Assembly (NCBI GenBank): GCA_016929245.1 | Contig: JAFGJE010000187.1 | Location: 1-33,076, forward strand | Reading direction: 5' to 3' | DNA length: 33,076 bases | Source of the DNA: Phycisphaerae bacterium | GTDB lineage: Bacteria; Planctomycetota; Phycisphaerae; SM23-33 | In this document: positions 18,242 through 25,214 of the stretch, piece after piece | How positions within the stretch are numbered: position 1 is the first letter of the stretch | Layout of the letters: the number at the start of each line of letters is the position of its first letter | The notes under the pieces: generated by a model | What the model was told of the DNA's origin: nothing | Databases searched by the model: none | The model's input: the letters and a program-made list of their open reading frames with translations, nothing else | Translations under genes and position numbers: made by a program

Positions 18242-18817
18242 GGTACCGGCTCCTGGTATTTCCTATCGGCGTTTTTTTTAGTCTGATGTTAATCCAGCCG
18301 ACCGAAACTCCCCCTACAGATGTATCGGAAACGGGAGACAAACCATGCCGAACGATTTGAAAATTCATAGGAAAAAGAAAAGCGGAATTCCTCCTTCCGG
18401 GGAGGGGGATGTCATAACCCGCTAAAAAAACGTGGATTGTGAAAAAAATTCCGATTCCTGACTTGACTTTTTCCTTCTTTCCGACAACCATGAAAAAAGA
18501 ACAAGGTTGGTTATGCCGATATGAAAGGCGCATGACCGACGAAGCCGCAGGGATGCGGCGGGTGATCCGTGACGGTGCGGCGTAGAGTGGTTCTCGGGGC
18601 GCCGAAGGCTTTCACGACGTCCTTCGACCCGGTCAGGTCGATGGCGGCGCGACGCTTCAAACACCGAGCCGTTGTGTTTGAGGCCGTCCCCACAAACCGG
18701 ATGTTCTTACACACCGGTGTTACGGATCGGTTGGAGTCCAGAGTAACGGGGCGTTGAAAGACGCCGTGGAACATCCGAAGAAGACCTCCATCGTTCAAGG
18801 CTGTGGAAAGGAGTGCC

Positions 18818-19873
18818 ATGTTCACCACAAAGCTGACACGAATCGTTTTCCCCTTCCTCGCGGTTGTTTTCGCCTGCGCGTTGCTGGGCGGGTGCAAGGA
18901 CAAGGGAAAGGACATCACCATCCGCTACGACCGTCCTCCGCAATACGAAATTTCCCAGAAGGTGCGGAAGGTCGCGATCGTCCAGTTCGGCGCCAAAAGC
19001 GGCACCGAGGAACGATGGGGGGAAGTCGCCTCCGACTGCCTCGCCGGCGTCATGGATGAATACGACAAGAAGTATCATCGGTACAAGCTGATCGACCGTA
19101 AACGCGTCCGGGCCATCATGGAGGAACGCGATTTCCAGATGTCGGTCGTCGATACCGACCAGGCGGTCGAGTTCGGAAAGATCGCCCAGGTGGACGCCAT
19201 GATCTACGGAACGGTCTACGTCGATCAGAGCGAGAAGGATGAAATCATCCATATCCCCGTTCCCTACGCCGGAACGATGCGAAAAACCGTCACCCACCGC
19301 ATGAGCACCGCCGCGGTGACGTTCGCCATGGTCGATGTTCAGACCACCAAGACCATCTGCAGCGTGACGGTCACCCGGAAATACGACTCCAAGAACTCCC
19401 CCAAGGAGGAGAAGGAAAAATACAAGGAATTCAAAAATAATCTCTCGGCCATCACGCAGCACCTGATCGACGAGTGCGTGCGGGAATTCGTCGGGAAAAT
19501 CAGCCCGCACGAGGTGGTCGTGAGCCTGCAACTCGAGGCCGGTAAGTCGAAACTTGTCAAGAACGGGAACAATTTCGCCGATGAAGGCGAATACAAGGAC
19601 GCGATTGAAGTCTACCAATCGGCCCTTCGGGAAACGCCCGACGACGACGGCGCGATGTTCAATATCGGTGTTTGCTATGAAGCGATGGGACAGTTGACCC
19701 AGGCGGAGCAATGGTACAACAAGGCCATCCGCCTGAATCCCGATTCGGAATACATCCGCGCCCGGAAGCGCGTCCGCGTGGAAGCCGAGGGCGAAGATGA
19801 AACCGACGAGCAGTCCGTCGAGGAAAATCGTCGCAAAGCGCGCGAAGCGAGACGGAAGGAAAACGGTGAATAA
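18818..19873 (+). CDS. CsgG/FlgO-like lipoprotein with C-terminal TPR
   Basis: Lipobox LLGGC; KVAIVQFGAKSGTEERWGE...LIDRKRVRAIMEERDFQ...GKIAQVDAMIYGTVY; TPR-like IEVYQSALRETPDDDGAMFNIGVCYEAMGQLTQAEQWYNKAIRLNP. GGAAAGGAG precedes ATG at 18818. Confidence 0.82.
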   Translation: MFTTKLTRIVFPFLAVVFACALLGGCKDKGKDITIRYDRPPQYEISQKVRKVAIVQFGAKSGTEERWGEVASDCLAGVMDEYDKKYHRYKLIDRKRVRAIMEERDFQMSVVDTDQAVEFGKIAQVDAMIYGTVYVDQSEKDEIIHIPVPYAGTMRKTVTHRMSTAAVTFAMVDVQTTKTICSVTVTRKYDSKNSPKEEKEKYKEFKNNLSAITQHLIDECVREFVGKISPHEVVVSLQLEAGKSKLVKNGNNFADEGEYKDAIEVYQSALRETPDDDGAMFNIGVCYEAMGQLTQAEQWYNKAIRLNPDSEYIRARKRVRVEAEGEDETDEQSVEENRRKAREARRKENGE

Positions 19874-20003
19874 GCGGGAGCGCGGCTTTGTGGGCCGGGC
19901 GACGGCGGAATCCCTCCGCACCGCATAAAACGGTTTTAGACTACGGGAGTGTATGTCCACTTGAGGCGAGGAACTGCCTCTTCGCCGGGAAAGGAGCAAC
20001 ACA

Positions 20004-21332
20004 ATGGGAAGAAAAGTACACACGATTCTGGCGATCCTGGCGGTGGCGATCCTTGCCTCCACCGTGTTCGCCCAGACGGGGGCCGACCTTCAGGAACAGG
20101 CCCGGAAAAAAGCGATGGCTATCGGCGCCGCCCGCGCCGACGCGATCCGGAAGCTGACGGCCCGGATCAACGGTCTGCGGATCACCGCCGACATGACGGT
20201 ACATGATTTCGTGACGGAAAGCGATTCGATCCGCACGTCGATGGACTCCTGGCTGCGCGGCATGAAGGAAGTCGGACAGCCCCGTTTCGACGGCGAGGAG
20301 GCGATCGTCGAGATGCAGGTGACGCTCAAGACCGTCATCCGCAAACTCAAGCAGTTCTATTCCGCCCATTACAAGGGCGACAAGGTCAAGATCAACAGCT
20401 TCGAGAAGATGACGGAATTGAATAAATACGACATCATCACCGAAGAAGGACACGGCGTGGTGCCCGAGGACCTGAAGGAAGAACCGCTGCTCGCCAAGGG
20501 CAGCAGCAGCGGGGCGATTCCGCCGATCTGGCAGAAGTACTGCACCGCGCGAGGGCGACTGATGGCCGTCGAGGCCGCCCGCGCCGACGCGCTGCGCAAA
20601 CTCGCCCAGCGAATCAGCGGCGTGCGCGTGACCGCGGAGACCACCGTGCAGGATTACGTCACGCAAAGCGACGACATCAACCTTCGCATGGACACCTTCG
20701 TTCGCGGGGCGAAGGAACTGGGCATCCGCTATCACCGCGACGAACTGATCGTCGAGGTGGAGATGCAGATTGTCCTCAAGACCGTCCTGACGAAGTTCAA
20801 AAGCTGGGCCGACGCCCACTACAAGGGCGACAAGGTGAAAATGACGGCCCTGGAGGAAAAAATCGAGAAGGTCCGTCATGACAAGATCGTCGAAACCGGC
20901 ATGGGCGTTCCGCCCCAGAAATACCTCAAGGACTACCAGCCGGAAGAGTTGGTCGTGGTGGAGAGGGTTCGGGAAACCGTGGCGCAAACCCCCGCCTGGG
21001 TGAGTGAAACGATCCGCGCCACCGGGGAAGCGGCCGTCGACACCGAGGCCGAGAACAAGGTCCAGGGTGAACTGATGGCCAAGCGGGCCGCCGAAATGGA
21101 CGCCCGCCGGAAACTCGCGGAGCAGGTTCAGGGACTCATGCTCACCGGCGACACGTCGGTCAAGAACTTCATGCTCAAGAACGACCAGGTTCGTTCCCGC
21201 ATGGAGGCCTACCAGCTCGGCGCGAAACTCGTCGACGCCGAGGTGAAGGACGGAAAAGCGACCGCCGAAGTGGAACTGGACCTCAAGCCCATCTGGCAGA
21301 TGTGGATTGTGTTTATCAAGCAACAACGGTAA
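20004..21332 (+). CDS. Secreted protein with three LPP20/FlgP-like tandem repeats
   Basis: AARADAIRKLTARINGLRITADMTVHDFVTESDSIRTSMDSWLRG / AARADALRKLAQRISGVRVTAETTVQDYVTQSDDINLRMDTFVRG / AAEMDARRKLAEQVQGLMLTGDTSVKNFMLKNDQVRSRMEAYQLG, after a signal peptide. Confidence 0.85.
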   Translation: MGRKVHTILAILAVAILASTVFAQTGADLQEQARKKAMAIGAARADAIRKLTARINGLRITADMTVHDFVTESDSIRTSMDSWLRGMKEVGQPRFDGEEAIVEMQVTLKTVIRKLKQFYSAHYKGDKVKINSFEKMTELNKYDIITEEGHGVVPEDLKEEPLLAKGSSSGAIPPIWQKYCTARGRLMAVEAARADALRKLAQRISGVRVTAETTVQDYVTQSDDINLRMDTFVRGAKELGIRYHRDELIVEVEMQIVLKTVLTKFKSWADAHYKGDKVKMTALEEKIEKVRHDKIVETGMGVPPQKYLKDYQPEELVVVERVRETVAQTPAWVSETIRATGEAAVDTEAENKVQGELMAKRAAEMDARRKLAEQVQGLMLTGDTSVKNFMLKNDQVRSRMEAYQLGAKLVDAEVKDGKATAEVELDLKPIWQMWIVFIKQQR

Positions 21333-21393
21333 ATCGTGGTATGTTTCAGCGGGGCGAGTGGCTCCGCCGGAGAACACGAACACAGATAGGAGA

Positions 21394-21558
21394 ATGATTA
21401 TGAAGAAGGTATTGAGCTTTCTGATGGTATGTGTCTTCGCGGTGGTCTTCACCGGCGTTCTGATGGGTTGTGAAGCCAATGGCGCGGACGACGGCATGAA
21501 AACGCAGAAACCGTCCGAAGTGCAACAGGAAGATAAGGACGTCGAAACCGCCGACTAA
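21394..21558 (+). CDS. Mini-lipoprotein A (54 aa)
   Basis: MIMKKVLSFLMVCVFAVVFTGVLMGCEANGADDGMKTQKPSEVQQEDKDVETAD; AGGAGA upstream; near-identical N-terminus to the next ORF. Confidence 0.8.
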   Translation: MIMKKVLSFLMVCVFAVVFTGVLMGCEANGADDGMKTQKPSEVQQEDKDVETAD

Positions 21559-21684
21559 GCTCTTGCCAAAGATCAAATCGTATGCGCGACGGAGTTCGCC
21601 GACGTGGGCTCCGTCGCGGCATTCGATGGAGTGCAAACCGGAAACGTGGAATCCGTCTCGCGGATGAGAAACAGGAGAACGAAC

Positions 21685-21828
21685 ATGAAAAAAGTATTGA
21701 GCTTTCTGATGGTATGCGTCTTCGCGGTGGTTTTCACCGGCGTTCTGACCGGCTGCGAGGATGACGTGAAGGTCCAGAGGCAGAGCGAAGTCACCAAGGA
21801 AGAACAGGAAGTCGAAGTCGCCGACTAA
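21685..21828 (+). CDS. Mini-lipoprotein B (47 aa), tandem paralogue of A
   Basis: MKKVLSFLMVCVFAVVFTGVLTGCEDDVKVQRQSEVTKEEQEVEVAD; AGGAGA upstream. Confidence 0.8.
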   Translation: MKKVLSFLMVCVFAVVFTGVLTGCEDDVKVQRQSEVTKEEQEVEVAD

Positions 21829-22043
21829 GCTCTTATCGATACCGAATCCTCCATTCGAGGACGCGGCGGAGTTTACCGCGGTGACCTCCGTCGCGTCCGA
21901 CAATGGGACGGAAACGAAATACGTGGAGAATCCCCCCGGCGGGCGGTGTGTCTTCGCGCGAACGCCGCGGGAGGAGTGTTTTTTATTCGCGGGTTATTTG
22001 CAGGAAAATCGTTTCGTGGCTGATTTATTCCGGGAGAGTTCCA

Positions 22044-23156
22044 ATGACAAATACGTTGATCCGAATATGCGGGTTCGTCCTGGTTCTGACGCTTCTGACG
22101 ACCCCGACCTGGGCGCAGAAGACCATTACCGTGACCGTCACGGGCATGGGACTGTCTGAAGACGAGGCGATCAAGAACGGGAAAAAGAAAGCCTCCGAGG
22201 AAGTCTTCGTGAAGGTCTACTCGCAAAGCGAAACGAAGGATTTCGAGCTGGTCAAGAGCACCATCCTGACGCGCTCGGCGGGGTTTATCCAGAGTTACAA
22301 GGTCATCGGCAAGAAAATCACCGCCGACGACGTGTTTGAAATCAAGATGGACGTGGTCATCCTGAAGGATCCCCTGGACGACCTGTGGGGCGTGGTGACC
22401 AATCTGCTGAAGGATATGGGCCGGCCGAAGATCATGGTCTTTCTGCGCGAGAAGATCGACGGAAAATGGCAGGACTCCTCGACCGTCGAAACGCAGGTGG
22501 TTCGCTCGCTGAAGGAAGCGGGGTTCATCCTGGTCGATCAGACGCAGATCAAGGCGATTGAAAAGAAGGACCTGGACGCCGCCGTCGCGGCCGACGACCC
22601 GTCCAAGGTGCAGTTCATCGCCCAGCAATACGGCGCCCCGATTTTCATCTCCGGCGTGGTGATCGCCGAGGGAAGCAAGAAAGTGATCTACGGGATGGAG
22701 AAGTATTACTACGAGGGCGACGCGAACGTCAAGATTTACCGTTCCGACACGGGCGAGATCATGCAGGCCTTGCCGGGCAAGAGCACGCCCGGCGTGCAGC
22801 GGACGGCCCGGGCGGCCGCCAAGCAGGCGCTGACCAGCCAGGGCAAATACGCCGCCCCGATCCTCACGCAGGACGTGCTGCGCTTCTGGATGGACGCCCT
22901 GGGCGGACGCGGGGAAGTGCAGTTGAAGGTCAGCGGAATCGAGTTCGGTCAGGTGATGGAAGTCGAGGAGGCGCTGAAGAAAATCGAGGGCGTCAGCGAC
23001 GTGTCGAGCGACTTCGGCAGCGACAACGCCGTTTTCTCCATCGAGTGCGACACGACGGCGAAGAAACTGGTTCGCCAAATCTACGCCGTGATGAAAGACA
23101 AACTGAAAATCAAAAACGTCTCGCAAAACGTCATCCAGGCGGAGTACCAGAAATAA
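22044..23156 (+). CDS. Secreted FlgT-like protein
   Basis: Signal MTNTLIRICGFVLVLTLLTTPTWA; TITVTVTGMGLSEDEAIKNGKKKASEEVFVKV...SAGFIQSYKVIGKKITADDVFEIKMDVVI resembles the FlgT N-domain, followed by a CsgG-like Rossmann region. Confidence 0.75.
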   Translation: MTNTLIRICGFVLVLTLLTTPTWAQKTITVTVTGMGLSEDEAIKNGKKKASEEVFVKVYSQSETKDFELVKSTILTRSAGFIQSYKVIGKKITADDVFEIKMDVVILKDPLDDLWGVVTNLLKDMGRPKIMVFLREKIDGKWQDSSTVETQVVRSLKEAGFILVDQTQIKAIEKKDLDAAVAADDPSKVQFIAQQYGAPIFISGVVIAEGSKKVIYGMEKYYYEGDANVKIYRSDTGEIMQALPGKSTPGVQRTARAAAKQALTSQGKYAAPILTQDVLRFWMDALGGRGEVQLKVSGIEFGQVMEVEEALKKIEGVSDVSSDFGSDNAVFSIECDTTAKKLVRQIYAVMKDKLKIKNVSQNVIQAEYQK

Positions 23157-23229: not shown

Positions 23230-23673
23230 ATGGACTACGAAATCGGCAACATCGGCCGTGTGATCGTCGCGCGGGGATTTGAAGGCGAGGACGTCTACGC
23301 GGAAATCGAATCGCTCGCGGCGAAGGAAAACATCTCCGGCGCCGCCGTGTTGCTGGTGGGGGGGCTTCGTAAAGGCAAGGTGGTCGTCGGCCCGGTCAAT
23401 CCCACCGGTCCTATCGAGCCGAATTTCCGGGAATTCGACGACGCGCGGGAGATCGTGGGCGTCGGGACGATCTTCCGCGACGAGACCGGGCCGAAGATGC
23501 ACCTGCACGCCGGCATCGGACGCGGGGAGGAATCCATCGTCGGATGCCCCCGCGGCGGGGCGACCGTATTCTGCGTCCTGGAAGTGATCCTCCTGGAAAT
23601 CGAAGGCGTCAACGCCCAACGGCTTGTCGATCCGGAAACCACGTTCAAACTTCTTTCCCTGGTGAAACGGTAA
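23230..23673 (+). CDS. PPC/DUF296 domain protein
   Basis: 147 aa; VIVARGFEGEDVYAEIESLAAKENISGAAVLLVGGLRKGKVVVGP...GPKMHLHAGIGRGEESIVGCPRGGATVFCVLEVILLEIEG. Confidence 0.88.
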   Translation: MDYEIGNIGRVIVARGFEGEDVYAEIESLAAKENISGAAVLLVGGLRKGKVVVGPVNPTGPIEPNFREFDDAREIVGVGTIFRDETGPKMHLHAGIGRGEESIVGCPRGGATVFCVLEVILLEIEGVNAQRLVDPETTFKLLSLVKR

Positions 23674-23690
23674 TTCATGACACGGGTTCC

Positions 23691-25214
23691 ATGAAGTCAC
23701 GCGCGATTGGTATTCTTGTTGCGGTGGTATTGCTCCTGGGCGCTTCGGGAGTCTTTCTCCTTTGGCGACGTCCCGGCGCGTCGGATTCCCCGGCCGCGCC
23801 CCCGTCAGGTCGATCCGTGCGGGAGGCGGCCTACGAGCAACTGGATGCGATTCGACGCGTCAAACGTCGGCAATTGGGGGAGTACCTGGACCGTATCCGG
23901 AAAACCGCCGTCGAACTTCGTGACGATCCGGTTCTGCGGAAATGTTTTTTCCTGGAACAGGACTTTTACACGCTCCGGCAGGGGGCTTCCGCCCCGTCCG
24001 ACGCCGTCGCGGCGATGCGGCAGCTTCGGGACCATATCCTGGTGCATTGTCTTCAGAAGTATCGGATGTTTTATAATATTCTGTTCGTCGATCCGCGGGG
24101 GGACGTTTTTTCCACGGTGATGCGGGCGGATTATCGCGGACAGAATTTACGGAACGGCGCGTTGGGGGAAACTTCCCTCGGCCGGCGCCTGCGGGACATG
24201 CCCGCACGGGCGTTTCTGGACTACGAATTTTCCACGGTCTCCCGAAGACCCTCGGCGTTCTTCGTCGAACCGGTGCACCGGGACGGCGTCCTGGCCGGCT
24301 GGTTCGTATTGCAGTGTTCGATCAATAATATCAACGACATCTTCGTCCGGGATGAAAACCTGGGCCGCACCGGAGAGGTGTTCCTGGTCAACCGGGATTG
24401 TCAGATGCTCACCGACTCCCGCTTCCAGGCGGATTCCAGCATTCTGAACCTGCACCTGTCGCCGGAGAACATCCAAAGCAAGTTCGCCGAGGGGCAGGGA
24501 CACAAAATCGTCACCGACTATCGCGGGTTTCGCGCGATGACCTCCTTCGAGGTGTGTTCCGTGATGGGCAGCGAGTGGCTGCTGGTGGCGAAAATCGACG
24601 AAGCCGAAGTCCTCACCAACGAATACGCCCGATGTCGCGAGGAATTCCGTCCCCGCTTGCTGGCGGCGCTGCGGGAACAGAACGTCCGGTATTCCTCTCC
24701 CGCCGAACCGCCCTCGGGCGCGCTGCTTGTGGATATGGACGAGTTCCGCAAGGCCCGCGCCTCCGAATCGCTGGTGACCTACGGGGTGGGAACCTGCACG
24801 GCGATTCTGATTCACCTGCCAGGCCGGTTCGCCTACCTGGCGCACGCCGGCAGCTACGATTCCCTCTACGGCGGGGGGAACCAGGACCTGCTGCGCAACA
24901 TGATCAAACGAATCTGCACGTATGAAATTCCCCCGTCCCGGATCCGTCGATTGCGGGTGGTTCTCGTCGCGCCGCACATGGATACGATCGCCCGGGCCGT
25001 GGATACTCTCGTGGAGGAGGGAATTTTTCTCACGCAGATTCGCTTCATGCGAAATCCCGACGCGAGCACAGCCGACGTCCGGCACGACGTGAACACCGGA
25101 ACCACCCTCGTGAAGTGGATGTCCAGGCAGCCGGGAAGTCCCACCACGTGGCAACGCGACACGGACGTTCCTCGCGTGGGCGATCTGATGCGAGAGACGC
25201 TCGCGCGGGAGTGA
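23691..25214 (+). CDS. Membrane-anchored Cache-like sensor with C-terminal CheD-like domain
   Basis: One N-terminal TM; Cache-like FYNILFVDPRGDVFSTVMRADYRGQNLRN...GRTGEVFLVNRDCQMLTDSRF; C-terminal LVTYGVGTCTAILIHLPGRFAYLAHAG...VRHDVNTGTTLVKWM. Confidence 0.8.
   Translation: MKSRAIGILVAVVLLLGASGVFLLWRRPGASDSPAAPPSGRSVREAAYEQLDAIRRVKRRQLGEYLDRIRKTAVELRDDPVLRKCFFLEQDFYTLRQGASAPSDAVAAMRQLRDHILVHCLQKYRMFYNILFVDPRGDVFSTVMRADYRGQNLRNGALGETSLGRRLRDMPARAFLDYEFSTVSRRPSAFFVEPVHRDGVLAGWFVLQCSINNINDIFVRDENLGRTGEVFLVNRDCQMLTDSRFQADSSILNLHLSPENIQSKFAEGQGHKIVTDYRGFRAMTSFEVCSVMGSEWLLVAKIDEAEVLTNEYARCREEFRPRLLAALREQNVRYSSPAEPPSGALLVDMDEFRKARASESLVTYGVGTCTAILIHLPGRFAYLAHAGSYDSLYGGGNQDLLRNMIKRICTYEIPPSRIRRLRVVLVAPHMDTIARAVDTLVEEGIFLTQIRFMRNPDASTADVRHDVNTGTTLVKWMSRQPGSPTTWQRDTDVPRVGDLMRETLARE

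Follow-up and report, generated by a model that had tools for sequence, protein, structure and literature searches.

Here we report a gene of a Phycisphaerae bacterium (Planctomycetota; assembly GCA_016929245.1) whose predicted product joins a dCache sensor domain to a domain resembling the chemotaxis protein CheD, with both domains predicted to lie outside the cytoplasm. The gene was found in a stretch of 33,076 nucleotides (hereafter the window; contig JAFGJE010000187.1, positions 1–33,076). Its open reading frame runs from the ATG at 23691 to a stop codon that ends at 25214 and encodes 507 amino acids, and the protein has a single matching place in its own genome. The features of the gene are listed below in window coordinates. 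L and G numbers are our labels for loci and genomes.

23691–25214, forward strand: whole gene of the dCache + CheD-like protein, predicted to be exported (translation; full-length relatives in 11 other genomes)
23706–23762, forward strand: N-terminal hydrophobic segment, residues 6–24, a putative signal peptide or anchor (Kyte-Doolittle 2.79)
23817–24599, forward strand: dCache sensor domain, residues 43 to about 303 (Pfam dCache_1 at 43–255; model matches dCache domains)
24600–24725, forward strand: helix and linker, residues 304–345, non-hydrophobic (secondary structure of the model; hydropathy)
24726–25211, forward strand: predicted CheD-like domain, residues 346–507 (predicted local distance difference test, pLDDT, 93.3; best match CheD 2f9z_C in Foldseek and VIA-align)
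24777–24779, forward strand: codon of Thr363, putative equivalent of CheD Thr21 (Thr in 13/14, Ser in 1/14)
24795–24797, forward strand: codon of Cys369, putative equivalent of the CheD nucleophile Cys27 (14/14)
24843–24845, forward strand: codon of His385, putative equivalent of CheD His44 (14/14, always at Cys +16)

The N-terminal half is a dCache-type sensor domain by Pfam match and by fold, in agreement with the initial annotation, which had called it Cache-like. The dCache_1 match at residues 43–255 (E 2.9e-11) scores 43.8 bits, just below the curated cut-off of 45, which is exceeded by the relative L026 (53.0 bits), and a full-length model of the window protein (pLDDT 81.3) matches the dCache domains of chemoreceptors and kinases. 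From about residue 346 onward no Pfam family was recognized, either with the domain alone or across 7 relatives.

The C-terminal domain was modelled alone with AlphaFold2 from 7 sequences (mean pLDDT 93.3, predicted template modelling score 0.88). The top PDB match of the model in Foldseek was CheD of Thermotoga maritima (2f9z chain C, E 1.3e-7), followed by CNF1, YfiH and NTAN1 (E 2e-4 to 7e-4). The second aligner, VIA-align, likewise ranked CheD first (Z 15.9, root-mean-square deviation 2.2 Å across 132 residues) and NTAN1 second (Z 10.8), with YlmD/YfiH at about 10 and CNF1/BLF1 at about 8; NTAN1, YfiH, CNF1 and BLF1 together span approximately 7.4–10.8. The sandwich fold with Cys and His that marks the CNF1/YfiH-like class of cysteine hydrolases is present in the predicted model. 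A CheD-like fold of the domain is well supported by these models. The link to CheD at the level of sequence is weak, and sequence-only searches with the domain (Pfam, phmmer and profile searches against the PDB, single-sequence hhalign) did not assign it to a family. The XopAK family (NCBIfam NF041406) gave weak matches in 4 of 8 relatives that span the Thr/Cys loop (e.g. L018:7116–8588, residues 302–357), with a best score of 18.8 bits (E 0.00087) that is below the curated cut-off of 150, and no match in the window protein. XopAK possibly belongs to the same fold class; no paper tying it to a deamidase was found in the open-licence literature.

In the window protein, Thr363-x5-Cys369 reads T-Y-G-V-G-T-C and His385 follows 16 residues past Cys369, which is the arrangement that had been claimed from the sequence, and the segment DVNTGTTLVKW is present near the C-terminus. 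The Thr-x5-Cys spacing is identical to that of CheD, whereas His stands at Cys +16 instead of +17; equivalence of the triad was read from spacing and alignment. Among the 14 aligned proteins of the family (mean column identity 47%), Cys and His are conserved in all and Thr in 13, with Ser in its place in the Gemmatimonadales paralog L058, which points to more than a chance resemblance. Cys369 is the sole Cys among the invariant columns, and further family-invariant residues include D390, Y393, Q449 and W476. The triad of CheD is Cys27/His44/Thr21 and that of NTAN1 is Cys75/His92/Ser69; NTAN1 mutants in Cys and His are inactive, and the Ser mutant is about 5-fold slower (PMC7022378). The strict retention of Cys and His, together with a replacement of Thr by Ser only, as in NTAN1, suggests that the chemistry has been kept, and catalysis by the CheD-like domain appears likely. 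The CheD-like assignment of the initial annotation stands for the predicted fold, for which CheD is the best PDB match, and for the triad, and fails for membership of the Pfam CheD family (PF03975).

Membrane topology was assessed by Kyte-Doolittle hydropathy (threshold 1.3) in 11 proteins. Residues 6–24 are the sole segment of the window protein that reaches the threshold, and the linker at residues 304–345 occupies the place of the second transmembrane segment of a chemoreceptor. By hydropathy, no second transmembrane segment was found between the dCache and CheD-like domains, and because none separates them, both are predicted to be extracytoplasmic, as had been proposed. As far as prediction goes, neither of the two outcomes that would have overturned the initial annotation, a fold unlike CheD or a second transmembrane segment, was seen. 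An alternative reading is that a transmembrane segment was missed or the topology is wrong, such that the C-terminal domain is cytoplasmic and works as a conventional CheD with a sensor attached. Known CheD works in the cytoplasm, and weaker hydrophobic stretches (1.31–1.59) occur in 5 of the 11 proteins (L017, L018, L019, L020, L025). However, all of these stretches fall within dCache or CheD-like sequence and none within the inter-domain linker, the window protein is free of them, the N-terminal segment is the strongest hydrophobic segment in all 11 proteins, and the N-termini of L017, L020 and L021, read by eye, resemble cleavable signal peptides. We regard a cytoplasmic domain as highly improbable. 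An extracytoplasmic location of the CheD-like domain is well supported by hydropathy and domain order, and the cytoplasmic location that is a trait of CheD is predicted not to apply to it.

The same fusion is present in 11 further genomes, which brings the family to 14 distinct loci in 12 genomes of Planctomycetota, Gemmatimonadales, Desulfobacterota and Omnitrophota. All 14 proteins align over their full length, including the Cache region, with the same layout throughout, and no stand-alone CheD-like domain occurs among the 14 loci. Six named loci (Planctomycetota GSL.Bin20, Gemmatimonadales bacterium, Deltaproteobacterium with two copies, Desulfobacteraceae bacterium and Omnitrophota bacterium) came from a profile search with the C-terminal domain, and a second Gemmatimonadales copy was found in addition. 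The family is rare: the fusion occurs in 5 of 397 genomes of the class of the window, counting the window genome and GSL.Bin20, and in 2 of 85 genomes of the class of G399. The phylum that includes the Desulfobacteraceae genome yielded matches in 6 of 395 genomes, of which two were already known and one is a weak fragment. Before counting, weak partial matches in G577, G022 and G102 were excluded, L002, L016, L022, L031 and L056 were counted once as one locus, and duplicate pairs were merged (L048/L019, L057/L018, L050/L020, L051/L021, L054/L017 and L058/L086). No relative was found in viral contigs; among plasmid records, the best 20 of 73 matches cover the dCache part.

A gene for a methyl-accepting chemotaxis protein (MCP) directly adjoins the fusion gene on the same strand in 7 of the 14 loci, with gaps of 26–341 nucleotides (a raw count). 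It lies directly upstream in L018, L019 and L020 (gaps of 111, 149 and 341 nucleotides) and directly downstream in L083, L084 and L085 (31, 26 and 87 nucleotides), the latter three having been found later through the domain profile alone, and the L058 copy, as seen in L086, lies 96 nucleotides downstream of a Cache-type MCP gene. These loci are spread over three branches of the tree and include both gene orders; the neighbourhood of L084 also holds CheW and CheB. In L021 an MCP gene is located on the same strand about 5.4 kilobases (kb) away. The six other loci show no MCP signature in the DNA searched around them, L017 and L025 being close to contig ends. A second MCP gene with Cache domains (L019:7285–10014) follows the fusion gene of L019 by about 0.9 kb, so that this locus is flanked by MCPs on both sides. 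A near-identical glycosyltransferase-like gene is found one or two genes from the MCP gene in L083 and L085 (L083:3100–4452, L085:2–1300), which indicates that their neighbourhood is partly shared. In GSL.Bin20 (L031:14681–17235), there is an overlap between the fusion gene and the end of a gene for a MinD-type ATPase with 4Fe-4S domains, and the cluster includes a gene with a Nitro_FeMo-Co domain.

The substrate could also be something other than a chemoreceptor, with the fusion being an exported CheD-fold amidohydrolase directed at some other protein of the envelope, at a peptide or at a small amide. The 7 of 14 loci without an adjoining MCP gene, that of the window included, are compatible with such a substrate, as are the varied substrates that the fold class serves (CheD, NTAN1, CNF1, BLF1 and YfiH; PMC7022378). 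The recurrence of MCP adjacency in three separate branches argues against it, as does the wide margin by which CheD is the nearest structure, and we consider it unlikely. The link to chemotaxis is drawn from the neighbourhoods of the relatives and not from that of the window itself, which amends the initial annotation. In the window, a gene with a PCC/DUF296 domain (23230–23673, forward strand, E 2.2e-16) ends 17 nucleotides before the dCache + CheD-like gene and is absent beside the relatives inspected. A TPR gene faces the dCache + CheD-like gene, and three same-strand genes at 18803–23156 (forward strand) have apparently secreted products, namely a CsgG/TPR protein, one with LPP20 repeats and one without a clear family.

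Canonical CheD was detected in all nine fusion genomes examined, out of 12, and in each of the nine the genome-wide PF03975 search matched places outside the fusion genes only, with that of the window genome on another contig. In the class of the window, canonical CheD is present in 166 of 394 genomes, and the enrichment in its five fusion genomes has a p value of 0.013 (Fisher), which counts in favour of the receptor-directed reading proposed below. A long HBM-type receptor (E 1e-60) is present in 2 of 394 genomes of this class, one of which has the fusion (p 0.025, Fisher); both tests are rough and combine separately drawn samples of the class. A full-length match to the long HBM receptor was found in 3 of 85 genomes of the class of G399, two with the fusion, a count that is biased because the profile was built from receptors adjoining fusions. 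In G294 (L087:11408–13709), upstream of the fusion gene by about 10 kb, a canonical CheD gene is followed directly by one for a HisKA_2 kinase.

The ectodomains of 7 fusion-linked receptors (six adjoining ones and that of L021) were compared with those of 6 others for Gln and Asn. The fusion-linked ectodomains measure 405–531 amino acids and those of G000 and G397 measure 287–288, while ectodomains of 407–529 amino acids also occur in G434, G424 and G030, in which the fusion was not found; a long ectodomain is suggestive as a mark of fusion-linked receptors and is not specific. No candidate deamidation site can be named, because nearly all conserved Gln and Asn positions are common to both groups. 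The HBM/4HB-type MCP ectodomains step by about 120 amino acids (about 287, 407 and 530), as if modules were added (step sizes from L018, L019, L020, L021, L073–L078 and L083–L085).

On balance, we give an even chance to the reading that the fusion is an exported, ligand-sensing CheD-fold amidohydrolase that acts on or docks with chemoreceptor ectodomains. The product would be a two-domain enzyme, periplasmic or membrane-anchored, whose dCache domain would recognize an extracytoplasmic small molecule as ligand and thereby control the attached Cys/His/Thr amidohydrolase domain. The latter would deamidate side-chain amides, most likely of Gln, in chemoreceptor ectodomains, or at least dock with them, so that receptors would be tuned from outside in parallel to the action of CheD inside. 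The ectodomain is the proposed target because gene pairing and fold both point there, and the window protein, which has no neighbouring receptor gene, may act alike on a receptor whose gene lies in another place. Computation supports the order of the domains, the CheD-like fold, the triad, the topology and the pairing with MCP genes in half of the loci; that a ligand gates the enzyme, that it is catalytic, that chemoreceptors are its substrate and that the window protein acts on a distantly encoded receptor are steps that we infer. More tentatively, and with somewhat greater doubt than confidence, we propose an outside counterpart of CheD, that is, a ligand-gated enzyme of the periplasm that would introduce covalent changes into the sensing region of a chemoreceptor, often the product of a neighbouring gene.

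The fusion might instead be a periplasmic docking partner whose CheD-like domain, once the protein is loaded with ligand, attaches to the receptor ectodomain, with chemistry minor or absent. CheD of Bacillus subtilis binds receptors and increases kinase activation, and a mutant that deamidates normally but binds weakly shows the full defect of the null; binding seems to be the main mode of action of this CheD (PMC3513319). The HBM receptor CtpL is reported to recognize the loaded periplasmic protein PstS (PMC5126104). The adjacency of MCP genes fits docking as well as catalysis. Against this stands the conservation of the triad, with Thr exchanged only for the residue used by NTAN1, and we take docking with little or no catalysis to be a serious rival that is nonetheless unlikely.

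Several results weigh against the proposed amidohydrolase acting on receptors. The profile-profile alignment to canonical CheD (E 0.0041) has catalytic Thr and Cys in register, which speaks for the reading, but its probability is just 8% and His is four columns off. PF03975 matched none of the 7 C-terminal domains searched, and in an alignment of 14 canonical CheDs with 11 relatives most CheD invariants outside the triad are absent, among them the Gly-Ser before Cys, the Pro after His and, in the GG...R segment, Gly and Arg; because these signatures are missing and the Pfam model fails, we call the domain CheD-like rather than CheD. No Gln is conserved exclusively in the 7 fusion-linked receptors as compared with the 6 others. 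A search for the MCP hairpin signature found no MCP in the 33-kb window, nor was one found in the DNA searched around the other loci of the Planctomycetota class (G019, G321, G234, G294).

Methylation, demethylation and deamidation, the covalent modifications known for chemoreceptors, occur in the cytoplasm. Searches of open-licence literature, at the level of paper listings and of passages of PMC9239204, turned up neither a Cache-CheD fusion nor a periplasmic CheD. If the proposed reading is true, a family encoded beside receptors in more than one phylum would carry out ligand-responsive enzymatic editing of the sensing domains themselves, and chemotaxis would gain a second, extracytoplasmic layer of tuning or adaptation. 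The MCP-adjoining loci supply specific enzyme-receptor pairs that are open to direct testing.

With dCache chemoreceptors and sensor kinases the fusion shares the type of ligand-binding domain to which its N-terminal half belongs, but it has a CheD-like domain in place of the second transmembrane segment and cytoplasmic signalling domain. NTAN1, YfiH, CNF1 and BLF1 also fall in this fold class and have its Cys and His, and the Ser of NTAN1 corresponds to the Ser position of L058, whereas their structural scores are lower and their partners and sites of action differ. PstS differs from the fusion as a binding protein that lacks an enzyme domain. Its pairing with CtpL in Pseudomonas aeruginosa is similar in that a periplasmic protein is matched to an HBM-type receptor (PMC5126104). 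CheD of T. maritima (2f9z chain C; PF03975) is the best fold match and has the identical Thr-x5-Cys spacing, and the fusion gene of the relatives often lies beside chemotaxis genes; in contrast to CheD, the domain of the fusion is predicted to be extracytoplasmic, stands behind a dCache sensor, gives no Pfam CheD match and lacks other residues invariant in the 14 canonical CheDs. The fusion should not be filed as CheD, since the Pfam model and the other signatures fail, but the predicted fold and the triad make a CheD-like mode of action probable.
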